NCBI GenBank assembly: GCA_934271235.1
Contig: CAKQQT010000017.1
Location: 7,051 to 71,050 of the forward strand
Reading direction: 5' to 3'
Origin: an uncultured Clostridia bacterium
GTDB lineage: Bacteria; Bacillota; Clostridia; Peptostreptococcales; Anaerovoracaceae
Length of the DNA stretch: 64,000 bases
Shown: positions 8,369-56,926 of the stretch, one piece after another
How positions within the stretch are numbered: the first letter of the stretch is position 1
Layout of the letters: every line of letters starts with the position of its first letter
Translations under genes and position numbers: made by a program
The notes under the pieces: model-generated
The model's input: only the letters and a program-made list of their open reading frames with translations
Database searches by the model: none
What the model was told of the DNA's origin: nothing

Positions 8369-8384
8369 AAAGGAGGCAGGACGA

Positions 8385-9680: not shown

Positions 9681-9699
9681 GCCAAGGAGGCAGCGCGCT

Positions 9700-10401: not shown

Positions 10402-10411
10402 GCAGATATTA

Positions 10412-10450: not shown

Positions 10451-10459
10451 GGAGGTTTT

Positions 10460-11245
10460 ATGAAATTATATGTATTAGATTTAGGGCGGATCATTATGGA
10501 AAACGACAACCCGGTCACCAAAGAGGACGGCACGCGGGCCCAGAAGCCGCAGATTCCGATCCACGCATTTTTGATCGATTCTCCGGCCGGATACATCCTC
10601 TTTGACGCGGGCTGTGACCCGCTGGGCATGAAGGGCGCATGGCCGAAAGAAATGTGCGCTAATCCGTTTGTTTACGACGAGAACCAAACATTGGAGAAGC
10701 AATTGGATACAATTTATGTTAAAATGGAAGATGTGCGGTACATCGTGCTTTCGCATCTGCACCTAGATCACGCGGGGGCTGTACACCTGTTCCCGAACGC
10801 AGAAGTCTTCGTAAACAAAACCGAACTGGAAGCAGTCTATGCGGGACACAAAGACGGCAGCATTGATATTTTCCACCAGAAGTCAGACTTTGAGAACTGG
10901 AACCGCGCAAATGTCAACTGGAAGCCGGTCAGCGGCGATCAGAAGCATTTCCTTTGCAATGACATCGACCTGTTGGACCTCGGCAAAGGCCACTCCTTTG
11001 GCATGCTCGCGTTAGCAGTGCACTTAAAAGAAGGATGTAAGATGCTGGTAGCCGACGCGGCTTATTCCGCGGTGCATTATGGTCCGCCGGCCCAGATGGC
11101 AGGCGTCTGCTGCGACGAGGAAGGATACTTCGCGGCGCTGGAAAAGATCCGAGCCTACGCAAAGGAACAGGACGCAGCAGTCCTGTTCGGCCACGATATG
11201 CAGCAGTTCGAAAGTCTGAAAAAAATCCCGGATTACTATGAGTAA
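10460..11245 (+). CDS. Metallo-beta-lactamase-fold hydrolase, N-acyl homoserine lactonase-like
   Basis: A 261-residue protein whose dinuclear metal motif HLHLDH lies at residues 99-104, with further ligands expected at the His of LFGHD and the Asp of MLVADAA. The opening LYVLDLGR and this motif context resemble the AttM/AiiA lactonase family. In this locus it more likely opens a sugar or hydroxy-acid lactone than quenches quorum signals. GGAGGT at 10451-10456 selects the ATG at 10460; an in-frame ATG at 10430 lies in the terminator. It has no close downstream partner. Confidence 0.85.
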   Translation: MKLYVLDLGRIIMENDNPVTKEDGTRAQKPQIPIHAFLIDSPAGYILFDAGCDPLGMKGAWPKEMCANPFVYDENQTLEKQLDTIYVKMEDVRYIVLSHLHLDHAGAVHLFPNAEVFVNKTELEAVYAGHKDGSIDIFHQKSDFENWNRANVNWKPVSGDQKHFLCNDIDLLDLGKGHSFGMLALAVHLKEGCKMLVADAAYSAVHYGPPAQMAGVCCDEEGYFAALEKIRAYAKEQDAAVLFGHDMQQFESLKKIPDYYE

Positions 11246-11359
11246 ACGTTATAGTTTCATATGAGGTTTTTGAATTAGACGAGAGCTCTGGAGAATGATA
11301 AAATACAGACAAAGTTAAGAAACATTTAAGTAGAAAGAAGACTGCTGGGAGGTGCAAAA

Positions 11360-11917
11360 ATGAGTGAGATGAAAAAGACTTCTATGGATTTGATCTTTCA
11401 GGTTTGCGTTTGTGTCTATGACATGGATGAAACACTGGAGAATTGGAAGAAGCTTTTTGATATCGATGAAAGCAGTATTAAGATCAAATACACAGAAGAT
11501 TATTTAAAAAATGATGATTGGAACGGTTTGAACTATAACGAAAAACCGTGCGAATGGTTCAACAAGTTTTGCAGATTCGACCTTGGCGGAGTTGATTTTG
11601 AAATCATTGAACCACTGCAAAAAGAACCGGGAAATCCGTATTCCGACTTCCTGCATGAACACGGTCAAGGGATCCATCATATCGGTGTCAAGCTTGGAGA
11701 CTTGAATCTTTTCAAAGAAAATATGAAGGAGCTTGGATATCCGAGAATGAATTACGCGGAGATGGGACCGGTTCTTTCGGATGGATCAAGAAAAGGCTGC
11801 TTTTTCTACGACCTGAGAGATCGGTTGGGATGCATTCTGGAATGCTGCAGCATGGTAGTCGGACCGTTGGCAGATGATCCGCGTTCCGGAAATCCGAAGG
11901 ACTTTGTAAACAACTAA
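11360..11917 (+). CDS. VOC-fold protein (paralogue 4)
   Basis: A 185-residue VOC protein and the only complete paralogue here with all four glyoxalase-I-like ligands: Gln in IFQVCV, Glu in EIIEPLQ, His in GIHHIG and Glu in CILECC. It therefore looks like the best catalytic candidate of the family in this window. GGGAGGTG precedes the start. It lies 71 bases before the TRAP transporter genes, suggesting its substrate or product is the transported compound. Confidence 0.9.
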   Translation: MSEMKKTSMDLIFQVCVCVYDMDETLENWKKLFDIDESSIKIKYTEDYLKNDDWNGLNYNEKPCEWFNKFCRFDLGGVDFEIIEPLQKEPGNPYSDFLHEHGQGIHHIGVKLGDLNLFKENMKELGYPRMNYAEMGPVLSDGSRKGCFFYDLRDRLGCILECCSMVVGPLADDPRSGNPKDFVNN

Positions 11918-11925
11918 TACGCAAT

Positions 11926-11954
11926 TAACGAAAAGTTTGAGAAGTTCGTTCTTT
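11926..11954 (+). terminator. Weak terminator or attenuator before the TRAP genes
   Basis: A six-base stem AACGAA/TTCGTT followed by CTTTT. It is weak and may allow read-through into the transporter genes. Confidence 0.35.
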
Positions 11955-11988
11955 TAAAACAAAAATGGAAAGGTAATAGGAGAAAAAT

Positions 11989-13038
11989 ATGAAGAAGAAA
12001 ATTTTAGCCGTTTTATTGGCGATGGTCATGATTTTTTCTTTTGTTGGATGCGGAAGCAACGACAATGGTGCAGACAGCGATAAGGTTTACGATTTAAGCT
12101 TTTCTTTGCTGAACGGTGAGAGCAACTTCCAGTCTGTTGCTTGGACAGATTGGGCGAATGCAGTAAATGAAGCGTCTAACGGACGTCTGAACATTAAAAT
12201 GTATTACGACAGCACTTTGGTAGATTCCTCTGCAGAATATCAGCAGCTGCTTGCAGGTGTAGCTGATATTGTTGATGCACATCGTTATGCATCCGATGGA
12301 TTTGTAATCTCTGAAAACTGGAAATGCATCACCTCCGGTATTCCGGCAGATGCAGTTGTAGATTTTTCATATAGACTTTACAATGAAATTCCGGCGATCG
12401 CAGATGAATACAAAGACGTAAAAGTTCTGGCACAGGCATGGAACGGCGGAACCACTTATCAGCTGCTGACAGTCAGCAAGCCGGTACATTCTCCTGCAGA
12501 CATGAAGGGTATGACGATCTGGTGTGAAGCAGACTGGAACGGCTTTATCAAAGCTTGCGGAGCGACTCCGGTAAATGTACCGTTTAACGAAGTATACTCC
12601 GGCTTATCCAAGAACATGTATGACGGCATTATGATCGCAGAAGAAACCTTGCAGTCCTGCAGCTTTGCAGAAGTCTGCAAATACTCCAATCAGCTGAATT
12701 TATCTTATGCATCCGAGCCGGGACATCTGATGAACCTGGACTCCTGGAACGCTTTACCGGAAGATCTGCAGAAGATCATTGACGATCATGCATCTATGGT
12801 TGAAGAAGAACAGATGGCATCTTTTGTGAAGACAACGGAAGAAGCATTCAAATGGGCACAGGAAACCTACGGCGTAGAACGTGTGGAACTGACCGATGAA
12901 GAGGCAGCGGTATTCCTTGAAACAGTAAGAGCGGCGAACATGGAAAAGGCAAAGGAACTTGATGCCAAAGGACTTCCGGGAACAGAAATCGTAGAGTCCT
13001 TAGCGAAGTGGACGGAAGAGTGGAACAGCAACAAGTAA
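11989..13038 (+). CDS. dctP: TRAP transporter substrate-binding lipoprotein (DctP family)
   Basis: A 349-residue exported binding protein. It has a lipoprotein signal peptide ending in FVGC (lipobox Cys near residue 22) and a mature part with DctP-family segments such as GMTIWCEADWN and FNEVYSGLSKNMYDGI. It captures the substrate, usually an organic acid bound through a conserved Arg, outside the membrane and delivers it to DctQ-DctM. Small and large permease genes follow. A hairpin between this gene and dctQ probably raises its expression relative to the permease. Confidence 0.95.
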   Translation: MKKKILAVLLAMVMIFSFVGCGSNDNGADSDKVYDLSFSLLNGESNFQSVAWTDWANAVNEASNGRLNIKMYYDSTLVDSSAEYQQLLAGVADIVDAHRYASDGFVISENWKCITSGIPADAVVDFSYRLYNEIPAIADEYKDVKVLAQAWNGGTTYQLLTVSKPVHSPADMKGMTIWCEADWNGFIKACGATPVNVPFNEVYSGLSKNMYDGIMIAEETLQSCSFAEVCKYSNQLNLSYASEPGHLMNLDSWNALPEDLQKIIDDHASMVEEEQMASFVKTTEEAFKWAQETYGVERVELTDEEAAVFLETVRAANMEKAKELDAKGLPGTEIVESLAKWTEEWNSNK

Positions 13039-13087
13039 AAAAGTATTCTTTGTAAATTAAAAGAGCGAATAGAACAACAGGAAGAAG

Positions 13088-37628: not shown

Positions 37629-40600
37629 ATGAAATTACGAAAAACACGAAAGAAACTAAGTGTTCTGTTATTGGCATTGGTAATGATCTTTACCATGATG
37701 CCGGTGACAACCATGACAGCCGAAGCAACATCCGCGGTTACCGGAACCTTTGGCTTTGGAGGGACACTTTCCGATGCATACGGAAACGACTACCGATTTT
37801 CCGGCAGTGAAGCAACCTTTATGCAGATCTACTTTGTGGATTACAAGGTGCAGGATTTTACGAAAGGAAACTGCCTGGAACTTGCCAATGTTCGTTCCTA
37901 TCGGGTAAACGGACAGGTTGCCTACTGTGTGGAGCATGGCGTGGATATCACGCCGGGAATCAAACTGACGGCAAGGAATCTGGATCAGTCTTATCTGGAA
38001 AAAATCTATCGGGATCGGCATCTGACCTATATTTTGGACAATATCAGTTTGTGCCTGCTTTATGGCAGACAGGAAGAAAGCCGCATTACGGACCTTTTGG
38101 ATTCGCCGGATAAGGGCGGCTTCGGATTCCGCAATTCGAAGTATTATGGGAAGAATGCACAAAAATATAATCTGAATGATTGGGAAGCGGCGACACGCCA
38201 GCTGGTGCATGAATCCCAGCAGCGATTCCGTGACCGAAACTTTCAAAAATTACAAAATGGGCTGGAATATACGAACGGACTCCGCAAAGCGGACGGGACC
38301 CGCTATCCCGGAAACGGCAAGAAGATTCGAGAAAGCCATTATCTGAATCCGCTGAAAGGAAAGGGCGCGGAGGACATTTATAATTACATGGTGTATCTGA
38401 TCAAGAACCATCGAAATATCTCGACCAAGATCGCGGCGGCCAGTGAGACAAAACCGAAAGAAGTTGCCCTGACGCTGGCTGCGGGAACAAAGGATACATG
38501 GAGATCCCAAAAGTTCATCGTAAGCGAGAACGACATTGCCGATCTGAAAGTAGAGTTAAACGGAAAACTTGCTTCCAACATCCGGCTCAAAACCGGGCAG
38601 GACGGAAACAACTGGTACTATCAGTATGAAGTCAAAGGCACACCCAAGAATGGGAAAGTTTATGCTGTGAAGCGAGATCTCCCGGCCTTACGTGATATGC
38701 CGGATGATATGCTGATCTGGGAATGCAAAGACGGAAACGGCGGTCATGTGCAGGCGCTGGCGACCGGTGCAGCCGATCCGATCGCAAGATTTGTAACCTT
38801 TACAACCAAGGAAGCACCGGAAGAACCGGATGAGGGGAATGACCGACCGGAACCGGAATACTTTCCGCCATTCAACATTCCGATCGAAAAAGAAGATCGG
38901 AATGCAGGTTGGGACGGAGACAAGCATACCGGCATGGGAGATGCATCCCTTGGCGCATCTTACACGCTGGAAAGACAGCTTAACGGCGGAGAATGGGAGA
39001 TCATTGACCGCTTGACGTTAGATGATTTCGGGACGGAACAGACTTTTACCGATCAGCCATGGAAGACCGCAGAGGATCTGACGCTGACCGAATCCGGTTC
39101 GTATACGCATACGATCACATCCGGCGACCCGCCGAAAGAATCCGTCCACTGCACCGTGGCACCAACCAAGGCAGAATGGACCGGAAGTGTGCGCTACCGC
39201 GTAACCGAGACGCGGCCGGATGGCAGATTCCTTGCGCCGGACAACGGTATCCGCGAGTACGAAGCAAGTTATTCTGCTGTAACAAACGATCGCAGAACCT
39301 GCGTTGACCTTTCCGAAAACTGGTCAGAAATCGAATACGATATCCAGTTTCGTGTGACCAACGGGGATAACAGCAGCAACAGCGGAAACGGAACCGGTAC
39401 TATCACAGAGCTTGATCCATCCTTAAGCTATGGACTGCAGACCTACTGCAACGACTGCTATCGCGGAAAATTTACGCTGTCAAAATCCTTGGAAAACGAG
39501 GATGTATTCAGTGAGGATAAAGGCGGCATGGCAGGCGGACAAAAAGATTCTCAAAAATCTTTCTGGAAGATCCGACTGGAATCCGGCGGGTGGGAAAATC
39601 ATCCGTATCTTTCCTTTGTCCGCGAAGCTGACGAAAAGTCAGGAACCGCAGTCTACCGCGTCGTGCGCGATACTTCCGGGACGGACAACGCGTCAGAAGC
39701 CATGCAGATCGGCACCAACGGAGATCTGTACGTTTATGATATCCCTTACGGCAGCTACATCGTAGAAGAATATGCAGCGGATGACGAAAGCTATTTGAAA
39801 GAACAATTTTCGCTGGTGATCGGGGAGCATCAAGGCTCTTATACACCGTCCGAAGAAAACGACAACCGCTACGACTATAACATCCGCGACAAAGTGAAGA
39901 CCAATCGGATCAAAGTCATAAAGACGAATGCGGAAACCGGCAAACAGGTAAGGGCGCAGGGAACCAAATTCTATGTCCGCTACATGGGAAATCCACTCAA
40001 GACCGATCCGACTTCTTCCAAAAACTATGGCCGCCTGCTGCCGAATGCAGAAGATATTACAGCAGACGGTCCGTATACGTTCGAAGCCGATGAGAACGGC
40101 GAGATCACGATCCCGTATGAACTGGAATTCGGTACTTACCGTTTGGAAGAATGGCTTTTGTCGGACGGTTATTTTGTCGGAGAATATCATGGCGGCGGAG
40201 CTGCGGGAAACCATGACTACGGGACCGTCGAGGAGGGCCAGAGAAAAGCTCTGTCAGGACATACGTATGAGGACCTTGTCGGCGTCTATGACGATACCGG
40301 AAATCCGGTAAAGTATCGGGACAAAGACAGCTACAAACTGAATGAGGTCTTTAACTTCTACACGTTCCAAGTCGAAAAGCAGGAAACGCATATAGACGGA
40401 AACTTCGGACAGAAAGTGGATAAGGATGGACAGATCACGGAAGCGGACCCGGCCTATGATCCGGATCATTATCCGTATCTTTCGTATTACCAGGCAGTCG
40501 GCATGGCCAACAATATGGTCAAAGGCAAGATCAGCATTGAGAAAAAAGGTGAAACCCTACAAGGCTTTCAAACGGAAGTCAAAGAGGGCAGGACCGTATT

Positions 40601-43600
40601 TACACCGATCTATGCGGCCGTCGACGGACTGAAAGGGGCCATCTACCAGATCTATGCGGCCGTCGATACCTGGCTGAATGACGGATCAGACGGTCCTGCG
40701 ATCTATGACAGCCAGACAGAAAAAGAGCTGACGATCCCGAAAACAAAGTCCACCCATGCAAATCACCTTTGGGAAGATATAAAAAGCGCGCTTTCCAAGT
40801 TTTTCACAGGATCCGGGGATGTCTATGAAACCGGAGAACTTTTGCATCCGTCCGGAGCTAAGCTTTGGTATCTGAAAGACCGAGGCGCAAAAGAAGACGG
40901 ACGCTATACCAGAGTTTATGTTTCGCCGGAACAAAAGGATACGAACTATGCTTACAGCTATGAAAGCACGACGGACGGCTTAAAGGTTCGCTATGATGTT
41001 TTGGTCACGATGAACTATCAGGCGGACGGTACGGCAGTCACCGAGGTGGAGGCGGCAAAGATCACCTCCGTGGAAAACGGCTATGCCGTCAGCATCCCGG
41101 TCACGCTGCCAAATGGATCGGTAGGAGAACAGATCCTTGATCCGATCGAAAACTATCTGACAAAGGATGATCCGCTGGATACCGGCACTGCATCCAGCCT
41201 TTCCGTATCCGAAAAGCGTTATACCTATGAAAGCTTAGGCGGCGAAGATGTCGATCTTGACGGAAACCAGATCGATCTTTCCGCGATCGGCGTACAGGCG
41301 TATGCGGAAAAGGACTATGATTTTTACCGGCTGACGGCAGCGGATGTCGGGGTGGAAGAACGGACTTTGCAGGAAGCAGAGGACAAAGATGGTGACGGGA
41401 TCATCGACGAGACAAAGGGCGATATCCCGGAAGTGAAAGAGACAAAGACCCGCTATGAGTGGGAAAACGGTGCGGAACTTGTTTCCCGGGCGAAAGGAGA
41501 TCGTGCGGTATTGAAAATCGGTTCTGATTTTGCGGTGCAGACGATCGGCTACTATCAAGGCGGCGTCTTCGTCAGTGAAGAATCGATGGTGCGCTCTGAC
41601 CGGCAGGGCAATCCGCTGAAAAGCTATACGATCCCGGAAAGCTGGCAGGAAGTCCCGTTTACCGGAAGTCCGGATGAAACCACGCATCACATTCTGATCT
41701 GCAAAGGCGAGGGAGCAGAAACAGTCTATCAGATCCTGCTTGCAGACGGCAGCTGGCAGCTTTGCGATGAAAACGGCAATTTTCAGAAGATGACGGTGCA
41801 GCAATATAAGGTGAGATATGAACAGGCTGCAGGCGATACGCAAGGCTTTTCTTTCTCTTGGGATGGCTTTATGGTCACTTCGAAAGCATCCCCGGAGGAT
41901 CAAAATGTGGTAACGACGATCACCAAACCGCAGACCAGCATTCAGCCGACCATTGAAGTCGGTGCAGGCTATACCTACGAGGAAAGCGGAAACACGATCA
42001 CATTCACCGGGCAGCAGCCGACTTCTCCGCTTTACTTTTTATCCGAAGACGGTATCCGGACGGAAATGTTCTATTCCGGAAAAACCGTAAAGACGATCCT
42101 TACGCTTCCGCAGTCAGCGGTTGACAAAAACGGTCCGTCGATCGTGCCGACTCTGCATGTCAAAGAAGATGGAAAGGACCACATCATCGACTGGTATTCA
42201 GCCTTGACGCCGGATCAAGCCGAAACGGGCGGCGTGCCGATCCCGGGCGTCAAATGGCAGGCTGCCAGACTGGAATCCGGCAAGACCGGCGAAGCAGAAC
42301 GCTACCGCATTGAGATCATATCAAACCGGAATGCCGATGATCCGCTGGAAATTACCTTTGCGGATGGCTACACCATGACCATATTTGCCGATACTGCAGA
42401 ATCCACAAACGGTGTGGGCGTGCTGGTACTGGACAATGTGTATAAGACAAATCGCGCAAGTCTCGGACAGCTCGTGGATACAATCATCACAGATGAAAAC
42501 GGTAAGGCGGTTTCCAAACTGCTGCCGCTTGGCAAGTATATCGTGAAAGAGATCCAGGCACCGAGCGGATATGTGACGGATGATCAGTCTTATGAGGTAG
42601 AGCTTGCTTATGAAGATCAATTTACGCCGGTCATCTGGCAGAACTTAAACTTAAAAAACGATGCCTTTCCCGTTGAAATCGATCTTACAAAAGTTTTTGA
42701 GACCGCGTATGCATCCGGAAACTATCAGCCATCCGGCGGCGCGCGGTTCGGTCTGTATCATGCGGATGCACTGGAAAGCGCAGGGAACGATGAAAAACTG
42801 AAAACAAAGATCGAAAAAGATACGTTGCTGGATGTCCTTACCGTGCAGGAAAACGGAAAAGCAAAGTCCAAGATCAAGCTGCCGTACGGCACCTACTATG
42901 TCAAGGAACTTGCAGCTAAGAGCGGTTATCTTTTACACGATCTTCCTTTCTATTTCGAGATCGGGGAAGATGATGCAGCAACTTCCCAGCCGTGTGAATT
43001 TGGATTTGGAGAGGATGGCAGCATCGAAGCTTCAGATGGCGTAGCCGGAAAGATTGTACTGAACCGCTATGGCGAGGCGATGATTTTGATCGAAGCGCAA
43101 GTGCGGTATCCGATGCCGGATCTTACGATGGACGATACGGTTTACGATCTTTGCGAAGACCGAAGCGAAGCAGGCTTAAGGATCATCGCGGGCAAAGCGG
43201 TTTCCAAAGCCGAAGTGACGGTAAGAGATGGCGAAGAGCGAAACCTGATCTTGCCAAACGGAAAGACTCTAAAGGTAAAAGTAACCGGAAATACCTATAC
43301 GTACACCTATGACGGAAGCGAGCGTCAGTTTGTGCCGACGGTCAGCTACACCGGCTATGCCGGAACGTATGAAACGGTATTCGAGGCAGCAAAGGGAGAA
43401 GACCTGCGTACCAAGACGCAATCCGGGACAGTCTGTGAAGCGGGGGAAAGTCCAAATCGGGCCATCTTTACCGTGACCCATACGCCGGTGACGAAAGAGG
43501 TTCCTGCAGACCGGGATACTGTAAAGACGGTCGGCGTGTTAGACCAAAACGGCAGCCAAACTTACCAACATACGGCGGCAGTGAGATACCAAACCGCAGA

Positions 43601-44618
43601 CGGAGTCTCTGCGATCGCAGGCGAGATCCTCCGGACACGCGGCAGCAAGACTGTGGCTGAAACGGTTACGGATGAGATTTTCCTGCTTGCAGGTGACCGA
43701 ATCGCGCTGCAGTCCACAAGTGGTGCAAATATCGTGCTGATGCTGGACGCAGACGGAAGCTTGAAAACAAGGATCTGTGATACGCTGGCGGGCAAGCTGG
43801 AAGAAACGGAAACCGTCAAAGCAGTGCTGGATGGTGTGGATAAAACCGCCGATGTGATCTTTGCAAAGTCGGTAACGCTTGCACGTCAGGATCATGCAGC
43901 CAAAATCCTGCAGGTTCAGATCAACACCTTGGATAATTTAACGGCGTCCGGAATCCAAAATGATGCCGTCAAACCGGATACGCCAAGCACACCGGAGACG
44001 CCGCGTGCGGACAGACCGGAAATCCGGACCCTTGCACAAGACAGCAAAACCAAGGATCACGATGCAGCCGCAGGAAAACATACGACCATCTGGGACAACG
44101 TCTTTTTATATCATGTTCCGACCAAGCAGAAACTGCGCCTCGTAGGAACCATTATGGTGAAGTCCACCGGAAAGCCATTGGTACTTGACGGGAAAACCGT
44201 AATGGAAACGCTGGACTTTGAGACCGAAAAAGCGGATACCACGATCAAGATGGCATTTTCTTTCGATGCGACCGGGCTTGCAGGAGACGACATTGTCGTA
44301 TTTGAAACGTTATATAAAGTCACTTTAGATCAAGACGGGACCGAAACGCTGGAAGAAGTCGCAAAACATGAGGACCTGACGGACGAGGGCCAGACAATCC
44401 ATTTTAACCCGGAAGAACCGGAAGAGCCGGACACGCCGGACGAGCCGGAAAACCCAAAACCGGATGAACCGCAAAATCCATCCGAAGTACCAAAAACCGG
44501 AGATGCCGCAAATACCGCACGGTATCTTCTGCTGGCTTTGCTGGCGCTGACCATACTCACCTGCGCAGCATACCGCCGCTATCTATCAGAGGAGGAACAA
44601 AAATATGATGAACTATAA
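37629..44618 (+). CDS. Giant LPxTG-type surface adhesin with thioester and Cna-B (SpaA-like) domains
   Basis: A 2329-residue exported protein. The signal peptide occupies residues 1-33. A probable thioester domain has Cys100 in AYCVEHG and Gln191 in ATRQLV, the pair that forms the internal thioester in Gram-positive adhesins. SpaA/Cna-B-type strands with the pattern P-x-G-x-Y-x3-E recur near residues 703, 825, 1630 and 1747. A Ca-binding-like DKDGDGIID loop lies near 1255. A Pro/Glu-rich wall segment precedes the sortase motif VPKTG (2287-2291), a hydrophobic helix and a charged tail. It is cargo of the element and probably mediates attachment to host or partner cells. Confidence 0.88.
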   Translation: MKLRKTRKKLSVLLLALVMIFTMMPVTTMTAEATSAVTGTFGFGGTLSDAYGNDYRFSGSEATFMQIYFVDYKVQDFTKGNCLELANVRSYRVNGQVAYCVEHGVDITPGIKLTARNLDQSYLEKIYRDRHLTYILDNISLCLLYGRQEESRITDLLDSPDKGGFGFRNSKYYGKNAQKYNLNDWEAATRQLVHESQQRFRDRNFQKLQNGLEYTNGLRKADGTRYPGNGKKIRESHYLNPLKGKGAEDIYNYMVYLIKNHRNISTKIAAASETKPKEVALTLAAGTKDTWRSQKFIVSENDIADLKVELNGKLASNIRLKTGQDGNNWYYQYEVKGTPKNGKVYAVKRDLPALRDMPDDMLIWECKDGNGGHVQALATGAADPIARFVTFTTKEAPEEPDEGNDRPEPEYFPPFNIPIEKEDRNAGWDGDKHTGMGDASLGASYTLERQLNGGEWEIIDRLTLDDFGTEQTFTDQPWKTAEDLTLTESGSYTHTITSGDPPKESVHCTVAPTKAEWTGSVRYRVTETRPDGRFLAPDNGIREYEASYSAVTNDRRTCVDLSENWSEIEYDIQFRVTNGDNSSNSGNGTGTITELDPSLSYGLQTYCNDCYRGKFTLSKSLENEDVFSEDKGGMAGGQKDSQKSFWKIRLESGGWENHPYLSFVREADEKSGTAVYRVVRDTSGTDNASEAMQIGTNGDLYVYDIPYGSYIVEEYAADDESYLKEQFSLVIGEHQGSYTPSEENDNRYDYNIRDKVKTNRIKVIKTNAETGKQVRAQGTKFYVRYMGNPLKTDPTSSKNYGRLLPNAEDITADGPYTFEADENGEITIPYELEFGTYRLEEWLLSDGYFVGEYHGGGAAGNHDYGTVEEGQRKALSGHTYEDLVGVYDDTGNPVKYRDKDSYKLNEVFNFYTFQVEKQETHIDGNFGQKVDKDGQITEADPAYDPDHYPYLSYYQAVGMANNMVKGKISIEKKGETLQGFQTEVKEGRTVFTPIYAAVDGLKGAIYQIYAAVDTWLNDGSDGPAIYDSQTEKELTIPKTKSTHANHLWEDIKSALSKFFTGSGDVYETGELLHPSGAKLWYLKDRGAKEDGRYTRVYVSPEQKDTNYAYSYESTTDGLKVRYDVLVTMNYQADGTAVTEVEAAKITSVENGYAVSIPVTLPNGSVGEQILDPIENYLTKDDPLDTGTASSLSVSEKRYTYESLGGEDVDLDGNQIDLSAIGVQAYAEKDYDFYRLTAADVGVEERTLQEAEDKDGDGIIDETKGDIPEVKETKTRYEWENGAELVSRAKGDRAVLKIGSDFAVQTIGYYQGGVFVSEESMVRSDRQGNPLKSYTIPESWQEVPFTGSPDETTHHILICKGEGAETVYQILLADGSWQLCDENGNFQKMTVQQYKVRYEQAAGDTQGFSFSWDGFMVTSKASPEDQNVVTTITKPQTSIQPTIEVGAGYTYEESGNTITFTGQQPTSPLYFLSEDGIRTEMFYSGKTVKTILTLPQSAVDKNGPSIVPTLHVKEDGKDHIIDWYSALTPDQAETGGVPIPGVKWQAARLESGKTGEAERYRIEIISNRNADDPLEITFADGYTMTIFADTAESTNGVGVLVLDNVYKTNRASLGQLVDTIITDENGKAVSKLLPLGKYIVKEIQAPSGYVTDDQSYEVELAYEDQFTPVIWQNLNLKNDAFPVEIDLTKVFETAYASGNYQPSGGARFGLYHADALESAGNDEKLKTKIEKDTLLDVLTVQENGKAKSKIKLPYGTYYVKELAAKSGYLLHDLPFYFEIGEDDAATSQPCEFGFGEDGSIEASDGVAGKIVLNRYGEAMILIEAQVRYPMPDLTMDDTVYDLCEDRSEAGLRIIAGKAVSKAEVTVRDGEERNLILPNGKTLKVKVTGNTYTYTYDGSERQFVPTVSYTGYAGTYETVFEAAKGEDLRTKTQSGTVCEAGESPNRAIFTVTHTPVTKEVPADRDTVKTVGVLDQNGSQTYQHTAAVRYQTADGVSAIAGEILRTRGSKTVAETVTDEIFLLAGDRIALQSTSGANIVLMLDADGSLKTRICDTLAGKLEETETVKAVLDGVDKTADVIFAKSVTLARQDHAAKILQVQINTLDNLTASGIQNDAVKPDTPSTPETPRADRPEIRTLAQDSKTKDHDAAAGKHTTIWDNVFLYHVPTKQKLRLVGTIMVKSTGKPLVLDGKTVMETLDFETEKADTTIKMAFSFDATGLAGDDIVVFETLYKVTLDQDGTETLEEVAKHEDLTDEGQTIHFNPEEPEEPDTPDEPENPKPDEPQNPSEVPKTGDAANTARYLLLALLALTILTCAAYRRYLSEEEQKYDEL

Positions 44619-45579
44619 AGAATTCTGCAACTATCTTGAGCACCACGTCGCAGACTATTTTCCAAAGGGATCCGGCAAGTATCAGCTGGAAATCCACCAT
44701 GTTGTGAAAAACAACGGGTCGGCAAAAACGGGTATTTCAATTCGCCAGGATGGCATGGACGCAGCGCCGATGCTTTACGCAGAGGACCTTTACGAAGACT
44801 ATATGCGGGGCTTAGCTTTGGAAGACATGCTTGAGAAAATGTTTCAGGCGCTTTTCCATGCGCAGCAGCTGCCTCCAAGCATGCCGAACCTGAAGAATTT
44901 CGAAGAAGTAAAAGACAAAATCGGATTTGGACTGATCAACTATGATCTAAATAAAGAAAACCTACAGGATTGTGTATGGACGCCGATTGAAAACCTTGCA
45001 AAAACCTACAAAGTGTTTTTTGAAAATGAAGAGCATATGTATGCTGCTTCGATTCCCAAAAAACTGTTTCAGGGCTGGGGGATCAGTCTGAATGAACTGG
45101 ACCGGCTTGCAGTGGTGAACATGGAACGGGAGTTTCCGCCGGTCTTGCTGGACTTTATAGAAGTCGATGGAAATGGAGGCAGTCTGGCATCCGAACCAAA
45201 AAATCTTTTGCAAGATAACCCTTGGCGGCGGAAGCACAAAGAACCTATTTTTGTATTGACCAATCTGACAAAGAGCATGGGAGCTGGCGCCATGTTATAT
45301 CCGGGGGTTCTGGAAAACATCAGTGAGATGGTGGGGGATGATCTGATGCTTATTCCGAGTTCTACGGATGAGCTGTTTGTGCTTTCCAGATCCGCAGGGA
45401 TTCCCCCAAAGGAGATCGGGATCGTGCTTCGAGCGATCAATAAGACCCTGCCCAAAGAGAACGTTTTATCCGATCGCATCTATGAGTTTCGCTATGCAGA
45501 GTCTAAGGTACAAGAAATCCCGGAGTCCGCTCCGCCGATAAAAATGCAAAAAAGAGAAAAGGACAGAGGTGCAAGATGA
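44605..45579 (+). CDS. DUF5688 family protein
   Basis: A 324-residue protein that matches the family common in clostridial ICEs; the opening and the segments DLYEDYMRGLALEDML and LTNLTKSMGAGAMLYP are typical. Function unknown. The start overlaps the adhesin gene by 14 bases after GAGGAGG. The stop overlaps the next start. Confidence 0.85.
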   Translation: MMNYKEFCNYLEHHVADYFPKGSGKYQLEIHHVVKNNGSAKTGISIRQDGMDAAPMLYAEDLYEDYMRGLALEDMLEKMFQALFHAQQLPPSMPNLKNFEEVKDKIGFGLINYDLNKENLQDCVWTPIENLAKTYKVFFENEEHMYAASIPKKLFQGWGISLNELDRLAVVNMEREFPPVLLDFIEVDGNGGSLASEPKNLLQDNPWRRKHKEPIFVLTNLTKSMGAGAMLYPGVLENISEMVGDDLMLIPSSTDELFVLSRSAGIPPKEIGIVLRAINKTLPKENVLSDRIYEFRYAESKVQEIPESAPPIKMQKREKDRGAR

Positions 45580-46001
45580 GCAAGGAAGAACGCATAAAAG
45601 CAGTATTTATTCAACCCGGAGAAAAACCAAAAATTGTTGAAATAGAGAATTCGCTAAAAGGCTTTTATTATCTTGTGGGAGATCCGATTCAGGTAGTATA
45701 TCCTTTTGAAGATGATGCGGTTCTTATTTGCAATGATGAAGGCAAGCTGAATGGATTGCCTTTGAACCGCGCAATTTTAGACCGAAACGGAAAAGTAAGT
45801 GATATTATTGCCGGAAACATGATAATCTGCAGAGCGCCAATCGGGAGCGAGGACTTTGCGAGCCTAACACCGGCGCAAGCGAGAAAATATTCTGATAGAT
45901 TCCGCAGACCGGAAATCTTTATGAAAACACCGGATGGAATTATGGTAACAAGATTGAATCTTGTTACCCTTACGAAAAAGGACAAAGAGATAGAGCGGTA
46001 A
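45576..46001 (+). CDS. DUF3846 family protein
   Basis: A 141-residue protein with DUF3846 features: GFYYLVGDPIQVVYPF, LNGLPLNRAI and GNMIICRAP. Function unknown, but it is a usual gene of these elements. It overlaps DUF5688 by ATGA. After it the composition drops sharply in GC at the first cargo cassette. Confidence 0.85.
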   Translation: MSKEERIKAVFIQPGEKPKIVEIENSLKGFYYLVGDPIQVVYPFEDDAVLICNDEGKLNGLPLNRAILDRNGKVSDIIAGNMIICRAPIGSEDFASLTPAQARKYSDRFRRPEIFMKTPDGIMVTRLNLVTLTKKDKEIER

Positions 46002-46013
46002 ACTGCAGGTGGC

Positions 46014-46115
46014 GGCACAGGCCGCTCTGTCTTAGCAAGCAGACCCTTTCTACTCCTGCTGCGAGTAGAAAGGGAGATGCTCAGGGGGATGCCCCCTGCC
46101 CCCCTACAGACAAGA
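46014..46115. other. Candidate origin of transfer (oriT) region
   Basis: A cluster of inverted repeats: GTCT/AGAC around TAGCAAGC, an 11-base hairpin CCCTTTCTACT/AGTAGAAAGGG at 46044-46074, and CAGGGGG/CCCCCTG at 46082-46098, then a C tract. It is non-coding backbone that would lie directly upstream of mobC and the relaxase gene if the 4-kb cassette were removed. No nic site was identified. Confidence 0.4.
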
Positions 46116-46130
46116 GGACTTCCGTCTCCG

Positions 46131-46159
46131 TTGTGTTTTCACTTCTTGTATGATATAAT
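46131..46159 (+). promoter_or_regulatory. Sigma-A-type promoter of the STAND-like cassette
   Basis: TTGTGT, a 17-base spacer and a perfect TATAAT, 22 bases before the small gene's ATG. Confidence 0.65.
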
Positions 46160-46181
46160 TTGAGATAAAAGAGAGTAATAA

Positions 46182-46364
46182 ATGGAATGTGCGGAAGCTA
46201 TAATTATGTGTACAATCATTTCCATCGTGGTAAATGTCATTGATTCTTTAATAGGCTTTTTTCATGGGAACAGGAATGATGAAGCTATGGGTGTGAAAAC
46301 ACTGCTTGCAATGATTGTAGGTTTTGCTTGTAATATTCAGATTATTGGAAATAAGAAACGGTAA
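46182..46364 (+). CDS. Small membrane protein of the STAND-like cassette
   Basis: A 60-residue protein with two hydrophobic segments (about residues 5-27 and 41-55) separated by a polar loop rich in Gly, Asn and Asp, and a basic tail. The binding site AGAGAG is weak. A strong promoter lies just upstream and the large STAND-like gene begins 72 bases downstream. AT-rich like that gene. No family recognised; a membrane effector or anchor is one possibility. Confidence 0.5.
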   Translation: MECAEAIIMCTIISIVVNVIDSLIGFFHGNRNDEAMGVKTLLAMIVGFACNIQIIGNKKR

Positions 46365-46436
46365 TACAATTTTCAATTTGTAAGAGATATAAACTTTCGC
46401 TTATTTATAAACTGTTATTCGGAGAGTGATAAATAT

Positions 46437-49400
46437 ATGCTTGAAATGTTGCTAGGGGCAATTACAGCCTTGGGAACTGCTGGGGCACAGAATGTTCTTA
46501 CTTCAGCTGGAGAAAGTGCAGTAAAGCACTTTAAAGATTCTCATGCTTGGAAAAAACTAATTGTTGGTACAGGGGATTTTTTTATTAAAAATGAGAGGGA
46601 AGAGAACTCTTTTTTCGAAGATTTAGAACTTGTATTGTCAAAAGATAATTTATGCCAAATTGCTAAAGACCTTAAAACTGAAGATGGTTACTTATTAAAG
46701 CAAAGACTGTATAAATCGCTTATGCAACTGATGAATAAATACGAAATCCCGTATGAAGTTGCCGAATCTTATACTATGAGGATTATTTATGCTATACTTG
46801 AACAACTAAAATCTGTCGACCCAATAAAATATGAGCACTATTTCTTGCAAGAATGGCGAGAAGAACAGGAAAGAAATTTTCAGGAACTACAGAAAAGGTT
46901 AGAAAAGATGACTAATGACATTGCTATCTTTAGTCAGGAAGAGATGACAATTTTATCATCTGGACAAATGGATCTCAATCTCAGAAAGAGCACCCAGAAT
47001 CCCCAAATAGGAATAGAGTTCTTTACTGTGGATGATCAACGTTTTCAAGAAGAGTTTGAAGAACGGAGACATGAAGAATTGGTATATGTAAGGGGACGTA
47101 GTAGAGAAGAAACAATATACTGTATTCTAAATGAATTATGGAGACTAGATGAGAAACGGCCTATTTATGTGGTTAAGAGTTTGGATTCTTGGAATAAATT
47201 ACATATTTTGAAAAGTGATAATAATATTTATATTCCTTGGTTTTATGCAGATGAGATTATTGCAATAGAGAATAATACTAATATTTTTGTGCTAGAAGAG
47301 AATACGCCAGCTTTTAATAGAAATGTTATTGAAATGCGTCCTAGAACACGAAATACATTATTGAAATGTCTTAATGATGCAGGTATGGAATATGATAAAG
47401 CATATACACTTTTAAAAGATACCCACGGTTTGTATATCCCAATGAAAAAGAAACTGTTTAGGGGAGAGTGCTTAAAATTACCTGCTTGGCTTGGGAAAAT
47501 TGGTGATAGGGTAAAAAAGATTTGCTTGCTTATAGGAGGTTGGGAGGAGACAGATGGAGATAAGCTTATCATAGAATCTTTATATGGGGATACATATGAA
47601 CATTTTCTGGAAACAGTCCTTCCATTTACAAAGGGAGAGGAGCCGTTTCTATGTGTAATCAAACATAATGGAATGGTAGCTTATTGCTTGGCTAGTACTG
47701 AAAATACATGGAGCTATTTAGACGTTTCTATGAATGAAAAGATATGGGAGCTATTTATAGAAGCAGTTCTTGAGGTGTTCAATGAATCAGAGAATCTATT
47801 TACCTACGATAGTCGTGAAAAACTGATGGCACAATTTAAAGGAGAGAGACTTTTTTGGTCTGAAACATTACGAAAGGGGATGTTAAAGACTTTAATGATG
47901 AAAGGTGCCTATGAAAAAGATTGCGACACACAACTTGTTTTAGATAGACTAGTCGAACAAATTTTTGGATGTGTAAAGAATGAAAAGCAATGGATATATA
48001 TATCCGAGTTTTGGCTTGAATTATGTGAAATCGCACCTACGGTGGTTTTAGAAAGGTTGCATAAGGAAATTGAAGAAGATACTGGTTTGTTGGAATTGTT
48101 CCAGAATCAGACAAGCGATTTTATTTTTGGTAGAAATGCATACATAAATATCTTATGGGGTATTGAGCAGTTTCTTGTCCAGAAAGATTATTTCTGGATG
48201 GCTTTTAGATGGCTGTTAAAATTGGATTCTATGGGGTATGAGTTTAAGTCTAATTCTCCGAAAGATATATTATCAAAAGTTTTTTGTACATGGTTAAATT
48301 TTTCCACGCTTCAAACCGCAAAAGAAAAAATAATAGCTGCGAAAAAAACATTTGAATTGGATTATTGTAATGCATGGTATCATTTGTATGCTGCAATTGA
48401 TAATAAAGGAAGAAGCATGATTGGGGAATTGTATTACCCTAAATATAGAGAGCATGAGATATTGAGAACCACTACCATGGGAGAGATGCGGGATACCTAT
48501 TTAGGATATCTAGATCTTCTTATTAAACATATGGATTTTTCAGTCGAGCATTGGGAAAAAATGCTTCACCTTTCAACAGAACTCCCCGAAGATTTGAAAG
48601 ATGATGTTTTTGATCAACTTTTGTATGAAATCCATCAAATGTCAGATGATGAAGTGATGATTATTAAAAATTCTTTACGCTCTTTGATTTACAGGCATAG
48701 TTATTTCTCTTCTTCATCTTGGACCATGTCTAAGGACAAAGTATGTGAATATGAAGAGTTGCTAAATAGAATTCATATCAACACTCCAGAATATGAATAC
48801 AGTTATCTGTTTTTAAGAAATGGAGATTATCCTCTTTTGCATCCAGTTCCATATGATAAAGAAGGGGAAAGAGAAGATAATGAGAATGCTACACAGGAGG
48901 TAATTCAAGAAAAACTTAAAGAATTTCAAGATAATGGTTATAGCATTGCTATTCTGGCGAAAATATGTGCACGTGAACCGTACAATACTTTAGGTACTTC
49001 TCTTGCAAAGTATTGGAACGATGGTAAATGGAATTTTAACACATTTAAAGAATTACTAACCGTTCAAGAATCTGGAGCCATTGCTATTGACTATTTAGCA
49101 GGAACTGAATGCGGAGGTGAATTATCATATTCTAATATAATTGCGGAATTATCCAATTTAGGATGTTCAGATGAATTATTGGCTAAGATTTATAGAGTAG
49201 AAGCAACAAAAACAAAAGAAGTTCCGATTGTGACAAATTCACCCGAGTCTATTAAAAAAGAGTTCTGGAAAGCATGCATTTTTTGTGAAGAATGTAATTT
49301 TTTTTGGGCGATAGAAGAATGTAAGAAATATGCTGTTCTTGACGTCTATCTAGATCAACTTCACCAAATTCATTATAGAAAATCGTTGGCTGCCGAAGTG

Positions 49401-50162
49401 ATTTTTGCATGTCTTGAGAATATTGAAGAAATGCCACGTTCTCTGGGAAATCAGATGACTGGTTACCACGTTGAACAGTTGCTAAGTGTGTTACAAGAGG
49501 CTTATATGGACAAGCCTAATAAATGTATGAGAATTGCTCACCTAGAAATTTTGTTCATGAATTTACTTGATTGGAAAAATATGAAGTGTTTCCGTCATAT
49601 TATCAAACAATCGCCAGAACTCATGGCCCAGATTGTATCTGTTGTATTTAAGCATGACCATGGAAAATCGGAAAAGTTGGCAATTGATGAAGCATATGTC
49701 CAAAATATGTACACGATTTATGATAAGGCACAATTTTGCCCAGCAGAAAGGGAAGGAGAAGTTCCCGAAGATCAATTAGAACAATGGGTTGTAAAATATA
49801 GAGATTTATTAATACAAAATGATCAGGAGAGTATGATTGGTATCACTCTAGGACGATTGTTTTCATTTGCTCCTATTGGGGATGATGGACATGAACCTTG
49901 CGATTCTGTTAGAAAAATGATAGAAAAGTTTGGCGACGAAAAAATGATAAGTCATTATCAGACGGCTGTATATAATCGTCGTGGTGTTTATAGTCCATCT
50001 GCGGGGAGAGAAGAACTAAGGATAGCCGAGGAATTCAAAGCTAATGCTAAGTATTTAGAGCCGCATTACCCGAAGACAGCAAAGATTTTTTATGGGTTAT
50101 ATGAAACTTATAAACAATTATCTGAGACAGAAAGGAAGGAGGCTGAATATGGATGGCATTAG
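46437..50162 (+). CDS. Giant STAND/NACHT-like protein with degenerate P-loop, putative defence protein
   Basis: A 1241-residue, strongly AT-rich gene. Residues 1-30 are small and hydrophobic. An alpha-helical N-domain runs to about 165. A nucleotide-binding-like core follows: the position of a Walker A loop reads VYVRGRSREETIY (217-229), with no GKT/GKS. The later strands NNTNIFVLEEN and the segment LKDTHGLYIP follow the usual order of a STAND NTPase. From about 420 to the end it is all helical, as in repeat-type sensor domains. GGAGAG precedes the start. It is probably an anti-phage or anti-element sensor, but this is inference; no catalytic effector domain was recognised. Confidence 0.65.
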   Translation: MLEMLLGAITALGTAGAQNVLTSAGESAVKHFKDSHAWKKLIVGTGDFFIKNEREENSFFEDLELVLSKDNLCQIAKDLKTEDGYLLKQRLYKSLMQLMNKYEIPYEVAESYTMRIIYAILEQLKSVDPIKYEHYFLQEWREEQERNFQELQKRLEKMTNDIAIFSQEEMTILSSGQMDLNLRKSTQNPQIGIEFFTVDDQRFQEEFEERRHEELVYVRGRSREETIYCILNELWRLDEKRPIYVVKSLDSWNKLHILKSDNNIYIPWFYADEIIAIENNTNIFVLEENTPAFNRNVIEMRPRTRNTLLKCLNDAGMEYDKAYTLLKDTHGLYIPMKKKLFRGECLKLPAWLGKIGDRVKKICLLIGGWEETDGDKLIIESLYGDTYEHFLETVLPFTKGEEPFLCVIKHNGMVAYCLASTENTWSYLDVSMNEKIWELFIEAVLEVFNESENLFTYDSREKLMAQFKGERLFWSETLRKGMLKTLMMKGAYEKDCDTQLVLDRLVEQIFGCVKNEKQWIYISEFWLELCEIAPTVVLERLHKEIEEDTGLLELFQNQTSDFIFGRNAYINILWGIEQFLVQKDYFWMAFRWLLKLDSMGYEFKSNSPKDILSKVFCTWLNFSTLQTAKEKIIAAKKTFELDYCNAWYHLYAAIDNKGRSMIGELYYPKYREHEILRTTTMGEMRDTYLGYLDLLIKHMDFSVEHWEKMLHLSTELPEDLKDDVFDQLLYEIHQMSDDEVMIIKNSLRSLIYRHSYFSSSSWTMSKDKVCEYEELLNRIHINTPEYEYSYLFLRNGDYPLLHPVPYDKEGEREDNENATQEVIQEKLKEFQDNGYSIAILAKICAREPYNTLGTSLAKYWNDGKWNFNTFKELLTVQESGAIAIDYLAGTECGGELSYSNIIAELSNLGCSDELLAKIYRVEATKTKEVPIVTNSPESIKKEFWKACIFCEECNFFWAIEECKKYAVLDVYLDQLHQIHYRKSLAAEVIFACLENIEEMPRSLGNQMTGYHVEQLLSVLQEAYMDKPNKCMRIAHLEILFMNLLDWKNMKCFRHIIKQSPELMAQIVSVVFKHDHGKSEKLAIDEAYVQNMYTIYDKAQFCPAEREGEVPEDQLEQWVVKYRDLLIQNDQESMIGITLGRLFSFAPIGDDGHEPCDSVRKMIEKFGDEKMISHYQTAVYNRRGVYSPSAGREELRIAEEFKANAKYLEPHYPKTAKIFYGLYETYKQLSETERKEAEYGWH

Positions 50163-50275
50163 CATCTATCCTGAATCTGAGGCGAAGGGTACTGAAAAAC
50201 ATGGTTAGTATCTTATGAAAAAAATCGGCAGTGGTGGAAGAGGAAAAAATTATTAGGTATATAAAGAAATTTATG
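50150..50275 (+). pseudogene. Possible remnant of a second cassette gene
   Basis: GGAAGGAGG followed at proper spacing by ATG at 50150, overlapping the giant gene, opens a frame of only 19 codons. The same frame continues past two stops with gene-like codons. This looks like the start of a decayed downstream partner rather than a working gene. Confidence 0.3.
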
Positions 50276-50351: not shown

Positions 50352-50381
50352 ATGCAGCAGGCTAGATGGTCTGCTGTTTTA
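50352..50381 (+). terminator. Probable terminator at the right end of the STAND-like cassette
   Basis: CAGCAG/CTGCTG stem followed by TTTTAT, shortly before the mobC binding site. The 238 bases from 50163 to 50400 otherwise hold only the decayed frame above and AT-rich sequence. Confidence 0.5.
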
Positions 50382-50400: not shown

Positions 50401-50733
50401 ATGGTTCATGGTGTGAAGAAACAGATTTGGCTGACAAAAGAAGAAAATGAATTATTACAGGTTTTTTCCCAGAAGACTTGTTTGACGGAAGCTGATTATA
50501 TTCGCATGCTCCTTCGCAACAGGGTGCCAAAGGAAAAACCGAGTGCTGAGTTCTATGAAACAATGAATCAGCTCAGTCAATTTTCAGAACGGCTTCAGGC
50601 ATTTGCAATTCAGCTTAGGGAAACAGGTGCCTGTGATGAAGATGCTTTGCAGGATGAGATACTTCGTTGGCATGAGTTCCAGTTAGATATTGAGAAGCGT
50701 TTCCTGGCTCCGGAGGAAATGCCATGGCGGTAA
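50401..50733 (+). CDS. mobC: MobC-like relaxosome accessory protein
   Basis: A 110-residue protein with a ribbon-helix-helix N-terminus and the motif TEADYIRMLLRNR of MobC-type mobilisation proteins. It binds oriT and assists the relaxase, whose start overlaps its end by 10 bases. TAGGAGGG precedes the start. Confidence 0.85.
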   Translation: MVHGVKKQIWLTKEENELLQVFSQKTCLTEADYIRMLLRNRVPKEKPSAEFYETMNQLSQFSERLQAFAIQLRETGACDEDALQDEILRWHEFQLDIEKRFLAPEEMPWR

Positions 50734-54765: not shown

Positions 54766-55908
54766 ATGCTTAAAAAGTTTGAAATTAAAAATTTCAAAAA
54801 CTTTAAAGAAAAAATCGTAATTGATTTCAGTAAAGTTGGGGGCTATCAGTTCAACCCGGAATGCATTTCACAGGATACGCTTGCAAAGATGCTGATTTAC
54901 GGAAAAAATGCAACCGGTAAAACGAATTTAGGAAGAGCAATTGTAGATATAAAAAGAGTCTTAGTATTTCCTATGGCTGTCGAGGAAAGCTCTTTTTTGA
55001 ATGCGGATTCCACAGATGAATACGCTGAATTCAATTACTATTTTCAATTTGGAAAGGATAAAGTACAGTATCTCTATAGAAAAAAGAATGCGAATTTTTT
55101 GAGCTATGAAGAAATGTATATAAATGAGGAACTGTATTTCACTAACCATATTACAGATGAAGGACTCGTTTTCGTACCGGGAACAGAGTTAACAGCTCAA
55201 AATGTGAATTTTGAACGATATGTTGAAGCCCATCGCGAAGGCGATGAAACCGGTCAAGGACGAACAATTCCATTTTTAAGATGGTTAGTCAACAACACGG
55301 CACTGACGGACAATTCTCCTGTTATGAAGCTGTATAACTATGTAAAGGGAATGACATTTATCACATTGAGTCCAAGACAAAGTATGGCAATTCAAAGACC
55401 TTCTGCAGATTTTTTTAAATCCCTAGAAAAAGAGGATAATTTAAAAGATTTTGAGAGCTTCCTTAATATCATGGGGGTTCAATGTGAATTAGAGCTTCAG
55501 AAACTGCCGGATGATACGATTGAACTGTATTTTAAGCACAAAAGAAAAGTGAATTTTCTGCAGACCGCGTCAAGTGGAACGATTGCGCTTTTGGATATTT
55601 ATCGTATGCTGCAGAACTTCAAGGAGATTACGTTTATGTACCTTGACGAATTTGATGCGTTTTATCATTACGAGATGTCAGAAAATATGATTGCCTTTTT
55701 TAAAGCAAAATACCCAGACAGTCAGATTATCATGACAACGCATAATACAAATCTTATGACAAATCGAATTATGCGGCCGGACTGCTTGCTCATTTTGTCG
55801 ACCTTCGGAACACTTACGCCACTTTGTGATGCGACAGGGCGAGAGCTCAGAGAAGGACATAATTTGGAGAAGCTGTATATAAGCGGAGAATTCAAAGACT
55901 ATGAGTAA
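54766..55908 (+). CDS. AAA15/OLD-like ATPase (RloA/AriA-type), putative defence sensor
   Basis: A 380-residue ABC-class ATPase. It opens with KKFEIKNFKNFKE. Walker A is GKNATGKT (46-53), a degenerate ABC signature TASSGT lies near 267, Walker B is MYLDEFD near 292, and a His switch is in MTTHNTNLM near 323. Such stand-alone ATPases partner nucleases in phage defence (OLD, RloAB, PARIS). AAAAGGTGG precedes the start. The next gene starts eight bases before this one ends, so the pair is coupled. It is AT-richer than the transfer genes it splits. Confidence 0.85.
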   Translation: MLKKFEIKNFKNFKEKIVIDFSKVGGYQFNPECISQDTLAKMLIYGKNATGKTNLGRAIVDIKRVLVFPMAVEESSFLNADSTDEYAEFNYYFQFGKDKVQYLYRKKNANFLSYEEMYINEELYFTNHITDEGLVFVPGTELTAQNVNFERYVEAHREGDETGQGRTIPFLRWLVNNTALTDNSPVMKLYNYVKGMTFITLSPRQSMAIQRPSADFFKSLEKEDNLKDFESFLNIMGVQCELELQKLPDDTIELYFKHKRKVNFLQTASSGTIALLDIYRMLQNFKEITFMYLDEFDAFYHYEMSENMIAFFKAKYPDSQIIMTTHNTNLMTNRIMRPDCLLILSTFGTLTPLCDATGRELREGHNLEKLYISGEFKDYE

Positions 55909-56926
55909 CTATGATTTTATAACGCCACGAGACAGGCAGCGACATCTTTTTATCGTGGAAGGCAATCATGAGAAAAATGAATTACTAAGCCTATTGCTAC
56001 AGTGTTTTCCGGAAATGAAGATTAAAGAGGAAAATATCATTATCTATGGAACGAACATTTTTGCGCTAAATGCAAAGCTCGTAAAAGAATATGGTGAAGA
56101 CTGGGAAAGTACGGATGTGGATCTGCCTTATATTGTCAGCAAAATGAAAGACCTTGGGACAACTTGGCATAAAGATAATTTTATTGACATTTTCCTGATC
56201 TTTGACTACGAAAGACAAGATACTTACTTTTCTGATGAAACGATTCGCAAAATGCAGCAGTATTTTTCTGATGAAACTGACATGGGAAAGCTATATATTA
56301 ACTATCCTATGGTGGAATCTTATTTAGATTCTTTTGATGGTTTACAGCAGCCTTTCGCTGAAAAGAGGGTCTTGCTTCCGTTTAAGAGAGGAAAGTCATA
56401 TAAGTCACAAGTTGCCAATAGTCCCATTCTGAAAGCTGTTGAGCTGCCGCAAATAGTCGACGATATATTGGAAAAAGAATGCGGAATCGGAGATGATCCA
56501 ATTCGCAAAAAATGTGTAGAAGAAATTTTGGCATTAAAAGAAAATGATACACTGATTGAAAACATACAAAACATTTTGGCAGGAAAAGCTACAGAGAATT
56601 CCTTAGAAACAAAGAAGCGACTTATTTGCAGTAAAATCAAGGAAATCGGATATACAGAGCAAAATACTACATACCTTGCATATATGAGAAACGAATTCTG
56701 TAAGATTATCTGCAGGAGCATTCGTAAAGCCAATCTTATCCAAAATGGTAATTACAATATTTCGGATGCACAGTTAAAACAATCCCTGATAGATATGAGT
56801 GCCATGAAAATACTGCAAGAGCAGAATCGATGCAGTGAAGATGAGCAAAATGGATTCATTTGGGTGCTGAACACAAGTGTGTTGATTGTACCTGATTATG
56901 CTTTTGACTTAGTAAAAACAGAATAG
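55901..56926 (+). CDS. TOPRIM-like partner of the ATPase, putative effector
   Basis: A 341-residue protein. Its N-terminus has a TOPRIM-style arrangement: FIVEGNHEK (Glu20) and later IFDYERQD (Asp102, Glu104), then LYINYPMVES. This resembles DUF4435/RloB-like TOPRIM nucleases paired with AAA15 ATPases, but overall similarity is not enough for a name. The C-terminal half is helical and unassigned. It overlaps the ATPase gene by eight bases and ends before a terminator. Confidence 0.7.
   Translation: MSNYDFITPRDRQRHLFIVEGNHEKNELLSLLLQCFPEMKIKEENIIIYGTNIFALNAKLVKEYGEDWESTDVDLPYIVSKMKDLGTTWHKDNFIDIFLIFDYERQDTYFSDETIRKMQQYFSDETDMGKLYINYPMVESYLDSFDGLQQPFAEKRVLLPFKRGKSYKSQVANSPILKAVELPQIVDDILEKECGIGDDPIRKKCVEEILALKENDTLIENIQNILAGKATENSLETKKRLICSKIKEIGYTEQNTTYLAYMRNEFCKIICRSIRKANLIQNGNYNISDAQLKQSLIDMSAMKILQEQNRCSEDEQNGFIWVLNTSVLIVPDYAFDLVKTE

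Follow-up and report, generated by a model that had tools for sequence, protein, structure and literature searches.

Background

A stretch of DNA from an uncultured Clostridia bacterium raises the question of what a very large protein, built in the order of a STAND NTPase and carrying a dead P-loop, does as cargo of a mobile element, and with which partner it works. The stretch analysed, here called the window, comprises 64,000 nucleotides of contig CAKQQT010000017.1 (assembly GCA_934271235.1, positions 7,051 to 71,050 of the forward strand), and coordinates given below without a locus name are window positions. An initial annotation, made from the sequence alone, described two open reading frames (ORFs), 46182-46364 (60 amino acids, aa) and 46437-50162 (1241 aa), as a defence cassette in which the small product was the membrane effector of the large one, and both ORFs were found where it had put them. 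The reading that we favour, at a probability of about 60%, is that the 1241-aa protein (hereafter the giant) is half of a two-gene phage-defence module consisting of an inactive-STAND-like sensor and a kinase encoded by an overlapping gene, and that the kinase gene of the window has decayed to a relic. The features on which the argument turns are the following:

46437..50162, + strand: giant sensor-like protein, 1241 aa, intact (ORF listing, homologue search, models)
47091..47123, + strand: pseudo-P-loop RGRSREETIYC of the giant, residues 219-229 (alignment of 111 sequences)
50092..50244, + strand: relic of the 5' end of a Ser/Thr kinase gene, with an in-frame stop (tblastn, shuffle test)

Results

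The giant and its dead P-loop

When the giant was searched against Pfam and NCBIfam, nothing came near the cut-offs (best E 0.1 and 0.2), and the Pfam scan bore out the earlier remark that it has no recognisable effector domain. PADLOC models, those for Avs and Dsr2 included, gave zero families at E <= 1, and neither SIR2 nor the C-terminal part of DSR2 was matched (Pfam, PADLOC). In a search of 5.8 billion proteins, 129 homologues were matched, of which 120 clusters are listed; one of these, P0001, is the window's giant but for a single residue and sits on other contigs, and across a 42-sequence alignment the identity to the window's giant is 41 to 68%. Judged by its sequence, the giant is a real, intact member of an undescribed family. 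The occurrence of the family is patchy, with rare and scattered full-length copies: 2/397 genomes sampled in the family of locus L001 and 2/392 in its order (the same two genomes), 1/296 genomes sampled in the family of L003, and 1/13 and 1/58 in two genera. No relatives were found in 50,697 phage records (tblastn, E limit 1e-5) or in viral contigs (two pattern scans); the PHROGs profile phrog_18693 matches residues 303-1226 of the giant (E 1.5e-27).

The Walker A position of the giant indeed reads RGRSREE, without GK[ST], as initially annotated. Among giants of at least 1200 aa the motif GxxxxGK[ST] is present in 0/111 (the window's giant and 110 from the remaining 119 clusters listed), and likewise in 0/42 of the smaller alignment. 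The consensus at this position is RGRxREET, in which the invariance of G-x3-E-E is almost complete: within the 111 sequences G220 is conserved in 109, E224 in 111, E225 in 110, T226 in 104 and C229 in 111, and the three arginines in 97, 98 and 77. Since Walker A is missing throughout the giants, the dead P-loop is a conserved trait of the family and not damage in the window copy.

AlphaFold models of giants suggest a helical N-domain (residues ~1-167), a P-loop-less STAND/AAA+-like core (~184-345), a winged-helix-like part (~357-427) and then a long, helical, solenoid-like array running to the C-terminus. In a Foldseek search with residues 1-520 the top matches include chains of the apoptosome, SAMD9, Sso1545, AVAST5 and CED-4, none at E <= 0.001. 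With these matches and the motif count of 0/111, the proposal that mobile cargo here encodes a protein of STAND-like order whose P-loop is dead is supported at moderate strength.

The kinase partner

At L001, L002 and L003 the first ORF behind the giant gene on its strand overlaps the 3' end of that gene by 68-71 bp and encodes a Ser/Thr kinase of 463-464 aa. The L001 pair, which is intact, belongs to Ruminococcus turbiniformis and lies within 8001-13050 of that locus. Pfam Pkinase matches the kinases of L001 and L003 with E values of 6e-16 and 6e-15, and a local profile identifies the kinase at all three loci, being the sole basis for L002. At L025 (genome G321) the kinase behind a full-length giant is split between two frames, possibly by decay or by sequencing error, so that the kinase is present at 4/4 full-length giant loci in genomes (in two frames at one). 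A kinase profile run over 12 genomes scored above 300 bits in four, exactly those with a full-length giant; a C-terminal kinase relic in G276 reached 55 bits, the second piece in G321 reached 50 bits, and the remaining matches were at or below 48 bits. Among 130 sampled family genomes, the kinase was detected at E <= 1e-40 only in G001, which has the giant.

The protein clusters point the same way. For 27/120 listed giant clusters the longest contig has exactly the same size as that of a listed kinase cluster, and with the sizes shifted by 1-20 bases in either direction as a control there were 0-3 coincidences. This comparison is indirect, being based on the longest contig of each cluster and on 120/129 giant and 120/128 kinase matches; it leaves the other 93 giant clusters undecided, and towards its end the kinase list runs into other kinases (P0239-P0241, 735-749 aa). 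The link extends to giants of 42% identity (P0111 and P0230). By genomics, sensor and kinase are linked. K75, D171 and D188 are invariant in 16 chosen aligned kinases, and strict patterns applied to 96 kinases of at least 430 aa recovered HRDIKP-type motifs in 91, DFG in 90, GxGGNG-type motifs in 81 and AIK-type motifs in 76; by its sequence, the partner belongs to the Hanks-type Ser/Thr kinases and retains the catalytic residues. Two apparent fusions of the giant's N-terminal part with kinase pieces (P0225 and P0215) are abrupt joins of broken-off fragments, probably deletion products or assembly chimeras, and were not counted as functional evidence.

The kinase relic

In the window the sensor gene is whole, and the kinase gene is reduced to a short 5' relic with stops. 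In tblastn the first 52 residues of the L001 kinase matched 50092-50244 at 46% identity (E 0.001), the L002 kinase gave E 0.011 and the L003 kinase no match; the relic starts inside the giant's last codons and may continue weakly to ~50338. Because the relic shares part of its length with codons of the giant, the stretch that follows the giant's stop was scored separately, and its best score among 93 kinases was 80, that of 300 shuffles being at most 53. One of 300 random window peptides outscored the relic (202), probably owing to the chimeric cluster P0225. The alignments begin within the first 40 kinase residues in 91/93 cases, and other kinase matches in the window were at chance level only (tblastn, E of at least 1.2). 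At L026, L028 and L031 the giant is broken or cut, and no full kinase is present.

The 60-aa ORF

46182..46364, + strand: orphan ORF of 60 aa, two hydrophobic stretches seen by eye (ORF listing, searches)

That this ORF adjoins the giant gene on the same strand, 72 bp apart, was the attraction of regarding its two-helix product as the giant's membrane effector. It has no match near the giant at L001, L002, L003, L025 or L026, the two matches elsewhere being due to chance (E 0.2-0.6), and in the protein collection at E 0.001 it matched only itself, with the limited sensitivity of a 60-aa query. This absence from homologous loci, an outcome that the initial annotation had itself named as refuting its proposal, refutes the ORF as a general partner; it is not conserved as a partner of the giant family, nothing supports its status as a gene, and an effector role for its product in the window is highly improbable.

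The cluster of the 60-aa ORF comprises 19 contigs of up to 71 kb, and the giant's own cluster three of up to 12.6 kb; the ORF may occur without the giant.

Cargo position in the element

45576..46001, + strand: DUF3846 gene of the element backbone, flanking the insertion on the left (Pfam, locus comparison)
50354..50377, + strand: terminator-like hairpin closing the cassette on the right, upstream of nikA (pattern match only)
50401..50733, + strand: NikA-like mobilisation gene of the element backbone, flanking the insertion on the right (locus comparison; Pfam score under the curated cut-off)

As had been claimed, the 4.4-kb cassette is cargo of a mobile element, here an integrative one. Related elements at L065 and L067 run DUF3846 - nikA - relaxase and are empty at the site of the cassette, so that the gap between DUF3846 and nikA is ~170 and ~260 bp in them versus 4.4 kb in the window. 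These elements were collected via the relaxase (18/299 genomes at E 1e-80; 11 regions taken), and in 9/11 regions DUF3846 was unmatched within the stretch, so that those say nothing on the empty site. The AT-richness of the pair was confirmed, with a G+C content of 0.335-0.368 within 46001-50000, 0.445-0.530 in the preceding 12 kb and 0.406-0.441 in the following 5 kb. The promoter ascribed to the pair was not recovered: a consensus scan had no site in 45950-46182, and in the whole region it found 14 sites versus 17.7 expected.

By eye only, TGATATAAT at 46151-46159 resembles an extended -10 element. Elsewhere in the element, an AAA ATPase and its partner at 54766-56926 match the candidate defence pair PDC-M12A/B (E 3e-92 and 6e-32) and sit between conjugation genes as a second defence-type cargo. 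A 2329-aa protein at 37629-44618, in which a signal-like start and, at the C-terminus, a PKTGD-type anchor were seen by eye, is probably a large surface protein encoded by the element.

Distant relatives and their neighbours

Defence proteins typically keep a sensor constant and exchange the domains around it. Relatives of the giant at 20-25% identity are present in 16 plasmid records, and for L027, from a genome of L001's family, profile comparison gives an alignment of 964 columns that starts at residue 218 and extends almost to the C-terminus (probability 100). The motif GxxxxGK[ST] occurs in 1/11 distant proteins, at residue 80 of L027 and outside the core. A Schlafen AlbA_2 N-terminus is found on the array in L032 and L034 (2/5 scanned) and in none of L027, L004 and L005. 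The AlbA_2-bearing relative at L034 (2646-9220) lies directly behind PsyrT and PsyrA genes (E 9e-274 and 2e-103), the L032 relative adjoins type I restriction-modification (R-M) genes and an AbiJ_NTD3-kinase fusion, and the L030 relative adjoins type I R-M genes; the kinase was not found in the stretch taken at L034 and L030. At L004 (4816-12843), in a plasmid region with transposition genes, a relative bearing a helix-turn-helix is immediately followed by a PD-lambda-4_A homologue (E 8e-66). Next to the giants themselves there are a DpnII R-M system at L003, a TIR/SEFIR protein at L001 and HsdR at L025. From such neighbours and from the distant relatives, the defence role supposed by the initial annotation is plausible.

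At L032 (1885-8291) the AbiJ_NTD3-Pkinase fusion is joined by an AbiJ_NTD4 protein beside the AlbA_2-bearing relative, which places another kinase next to this sensor type. The PD-lambda-4_A homologue was rejected as kin of the giant family (profile probability 0.2), and it has one short motif in common with its neighbour at L004 (E 3e-6). A PD-(D/E)XK nuclease-like pattern was seen, by eye only, near the N-terminus of L004-L007 and L027; as Pfam has no nuclease in L004, L005 and L027, it stays a mere lead.

The giant's N-domain (residues 17-165) is also carried by DSR2-like proteins at L033 (3622-7083, Dsr2 E 5e-53) and L029 (1636-5160, E 8e-82) and, by similarity to these two, at L073 (3385-6774). 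SIR2 was not found by Pfam in the L033 and L029 proteins, and no kinase of the giant's partner family is beside these two. A hint of a paralogue in G001 was discarded, only the N-domain being in common with the giant.

Discussion

Comparison with known systems

Inactive STAND (iSTAND) proteins with lost NTP-binding motifs are part of vWA-MoxR ternary conflict systems (PMC7159879, PMC8195603). In their features they are like the giant, namely in the lost NTP-binding motifs, the variable N-terminal helical/effector part and the proposed sensing of invaders. Unlike them, the giant has a separate Ser/Thr kinase as its partner, and its named genomes are Firmicutes, with one cluster labelled Gastranaerophilales; neither vWA nor MoxR was seen among eight neighbours (besides the two kinases) at L001 and L003, a scan that covered the direct upstream neighbours and did not extend to further downstream genes. 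In BREX, BrxB is an iSTAND protein and PglW combines kinase and iSTAND in one protein (PMC12839542), the likeness being that an active Ser/Thr/Tyr kinase is joined with a P-loop-less STAND module in defence. In contrast to PglW, the kinase and the STAND-like protein described here are encoded by two genes, and the giant bears a long helical array and has no PADLOC match. With Avs proteins, of which AVAST5 is among the top Foldseek matches, the giant appears to share the order of N-terminal part, NTPase-like core and C-terminal repeat sensor; unlike them, it lacks both GK[ST] and a PADLOC match, and its effector would act in trans. Among PADLOC models the L001 kinase matches mad6 of MADS (E 1e-21), PD-T4-6 (E 4e-19) and Stk2 (E 3e-15); these matches span the kinase domain, and the family differs from all three by its tie to the giant gene. 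In comparison with DSR2 (PMC11087589), the DSR2-like proteins at L033 and L029 have the N-domain of the giant in the position expected for SIR2, whereas the giant itself has no Dsr2 match and shares the N-domain alone. The giant-kinase pair is named in no title or abstract opening among the literature matches listed.

A possible mechanism and its alternatives

A fuller version of the proposal, to which we give somewhat less than an even chance, is a two-gene immune relay in which an NLR-like sensor, having lost ATP binding in the family ancestor, would switch a Ser/Thr kinase in trans. The sensor array would be modular, with AlbA_2 or other N-termini elsewhere, and the N-domain would be a portable adaptor that is also used in SIR2-less DSR2-like proteins. 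In the favoured sensor-kinase module, the C-terminal helical array would bind a product of the invader, the core without a P-loop would, with the winged helix, relay the change without an ATP switch, the helical N-domain would release or recruit the kinase, and the kinase would phosphorylate a host or phage target and thereby halt growth or phage production. With its sensor whole and its kinase gene decayed, the window copy is most likely disarmed, half of a system. Of this picture, the family with its dead P-loop, the link to the kinase, the relic and the place as cargo have been observed, and defence, the direction of signalling, the kinase target and the disarmed state are inferred.

The same gene pair could be read as toxin-antitoxin-like, with the giant inhibiting a toxic kinase and sensing consisting only of the loss of that inhibition. 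The order of giant before kinase is fixed, with an overlap, and the kinase is broken beside an intact giant in the window and at L025 (where a sequencing error is possible), the reverse state being seen at 0/3 decayed loci (L026, L028 and L031), all of which suits such a pair; however, an inhibitor of 1241 aa would be unusual by general knowledge, and since the relatives at L034 and L030, which have another N-terminus, are without a kinase in the stretch taken, this sensor type does not exist solely to restrain a kinase. We consider a toxin-antitoxin-like pair unlikely. Another view is that the window's giant is an orphan that still works alone or with another host kinase, the loss of the kinase not being a loss of function. 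As dN/dS was saturated at synonymous sites, deviations from conserved positions were counted as a substitute measure of relaxed selection: at 249 near-invariant columns the window giant deviates 7 times (the median being 4, and its rank 23 of 111), which is no clear sign of decay. This, together with a frame open over its whole length, conservation about as in other members and the presence of the near-identical P0001 on other contigs, speaks for this view. On the other side, no effector domain is recognisable in the giant and the kinase relic is still visible, so that the giant may not yet have had time to decay since the kinase was lost. An orphan function is in our judgement a rather remote prospect, and the sensor-kinase module with a decayed kinase is kept as the preferred reading.

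Implications

The decayed copies in the window and at L026, L028, L031 and perhaps L025 suggest that the kinase, or the module as a whole, is costly to keep. Inactive STAND modules are known within larger defence machines, in which sensing without an ATP switch is an open question. If the reading of a sensor-kinase module is true, the compact pair would make ATP-free sensing testable with two genes, and it would add a phosphorylation-based output to the bacterial NLR-like systems.

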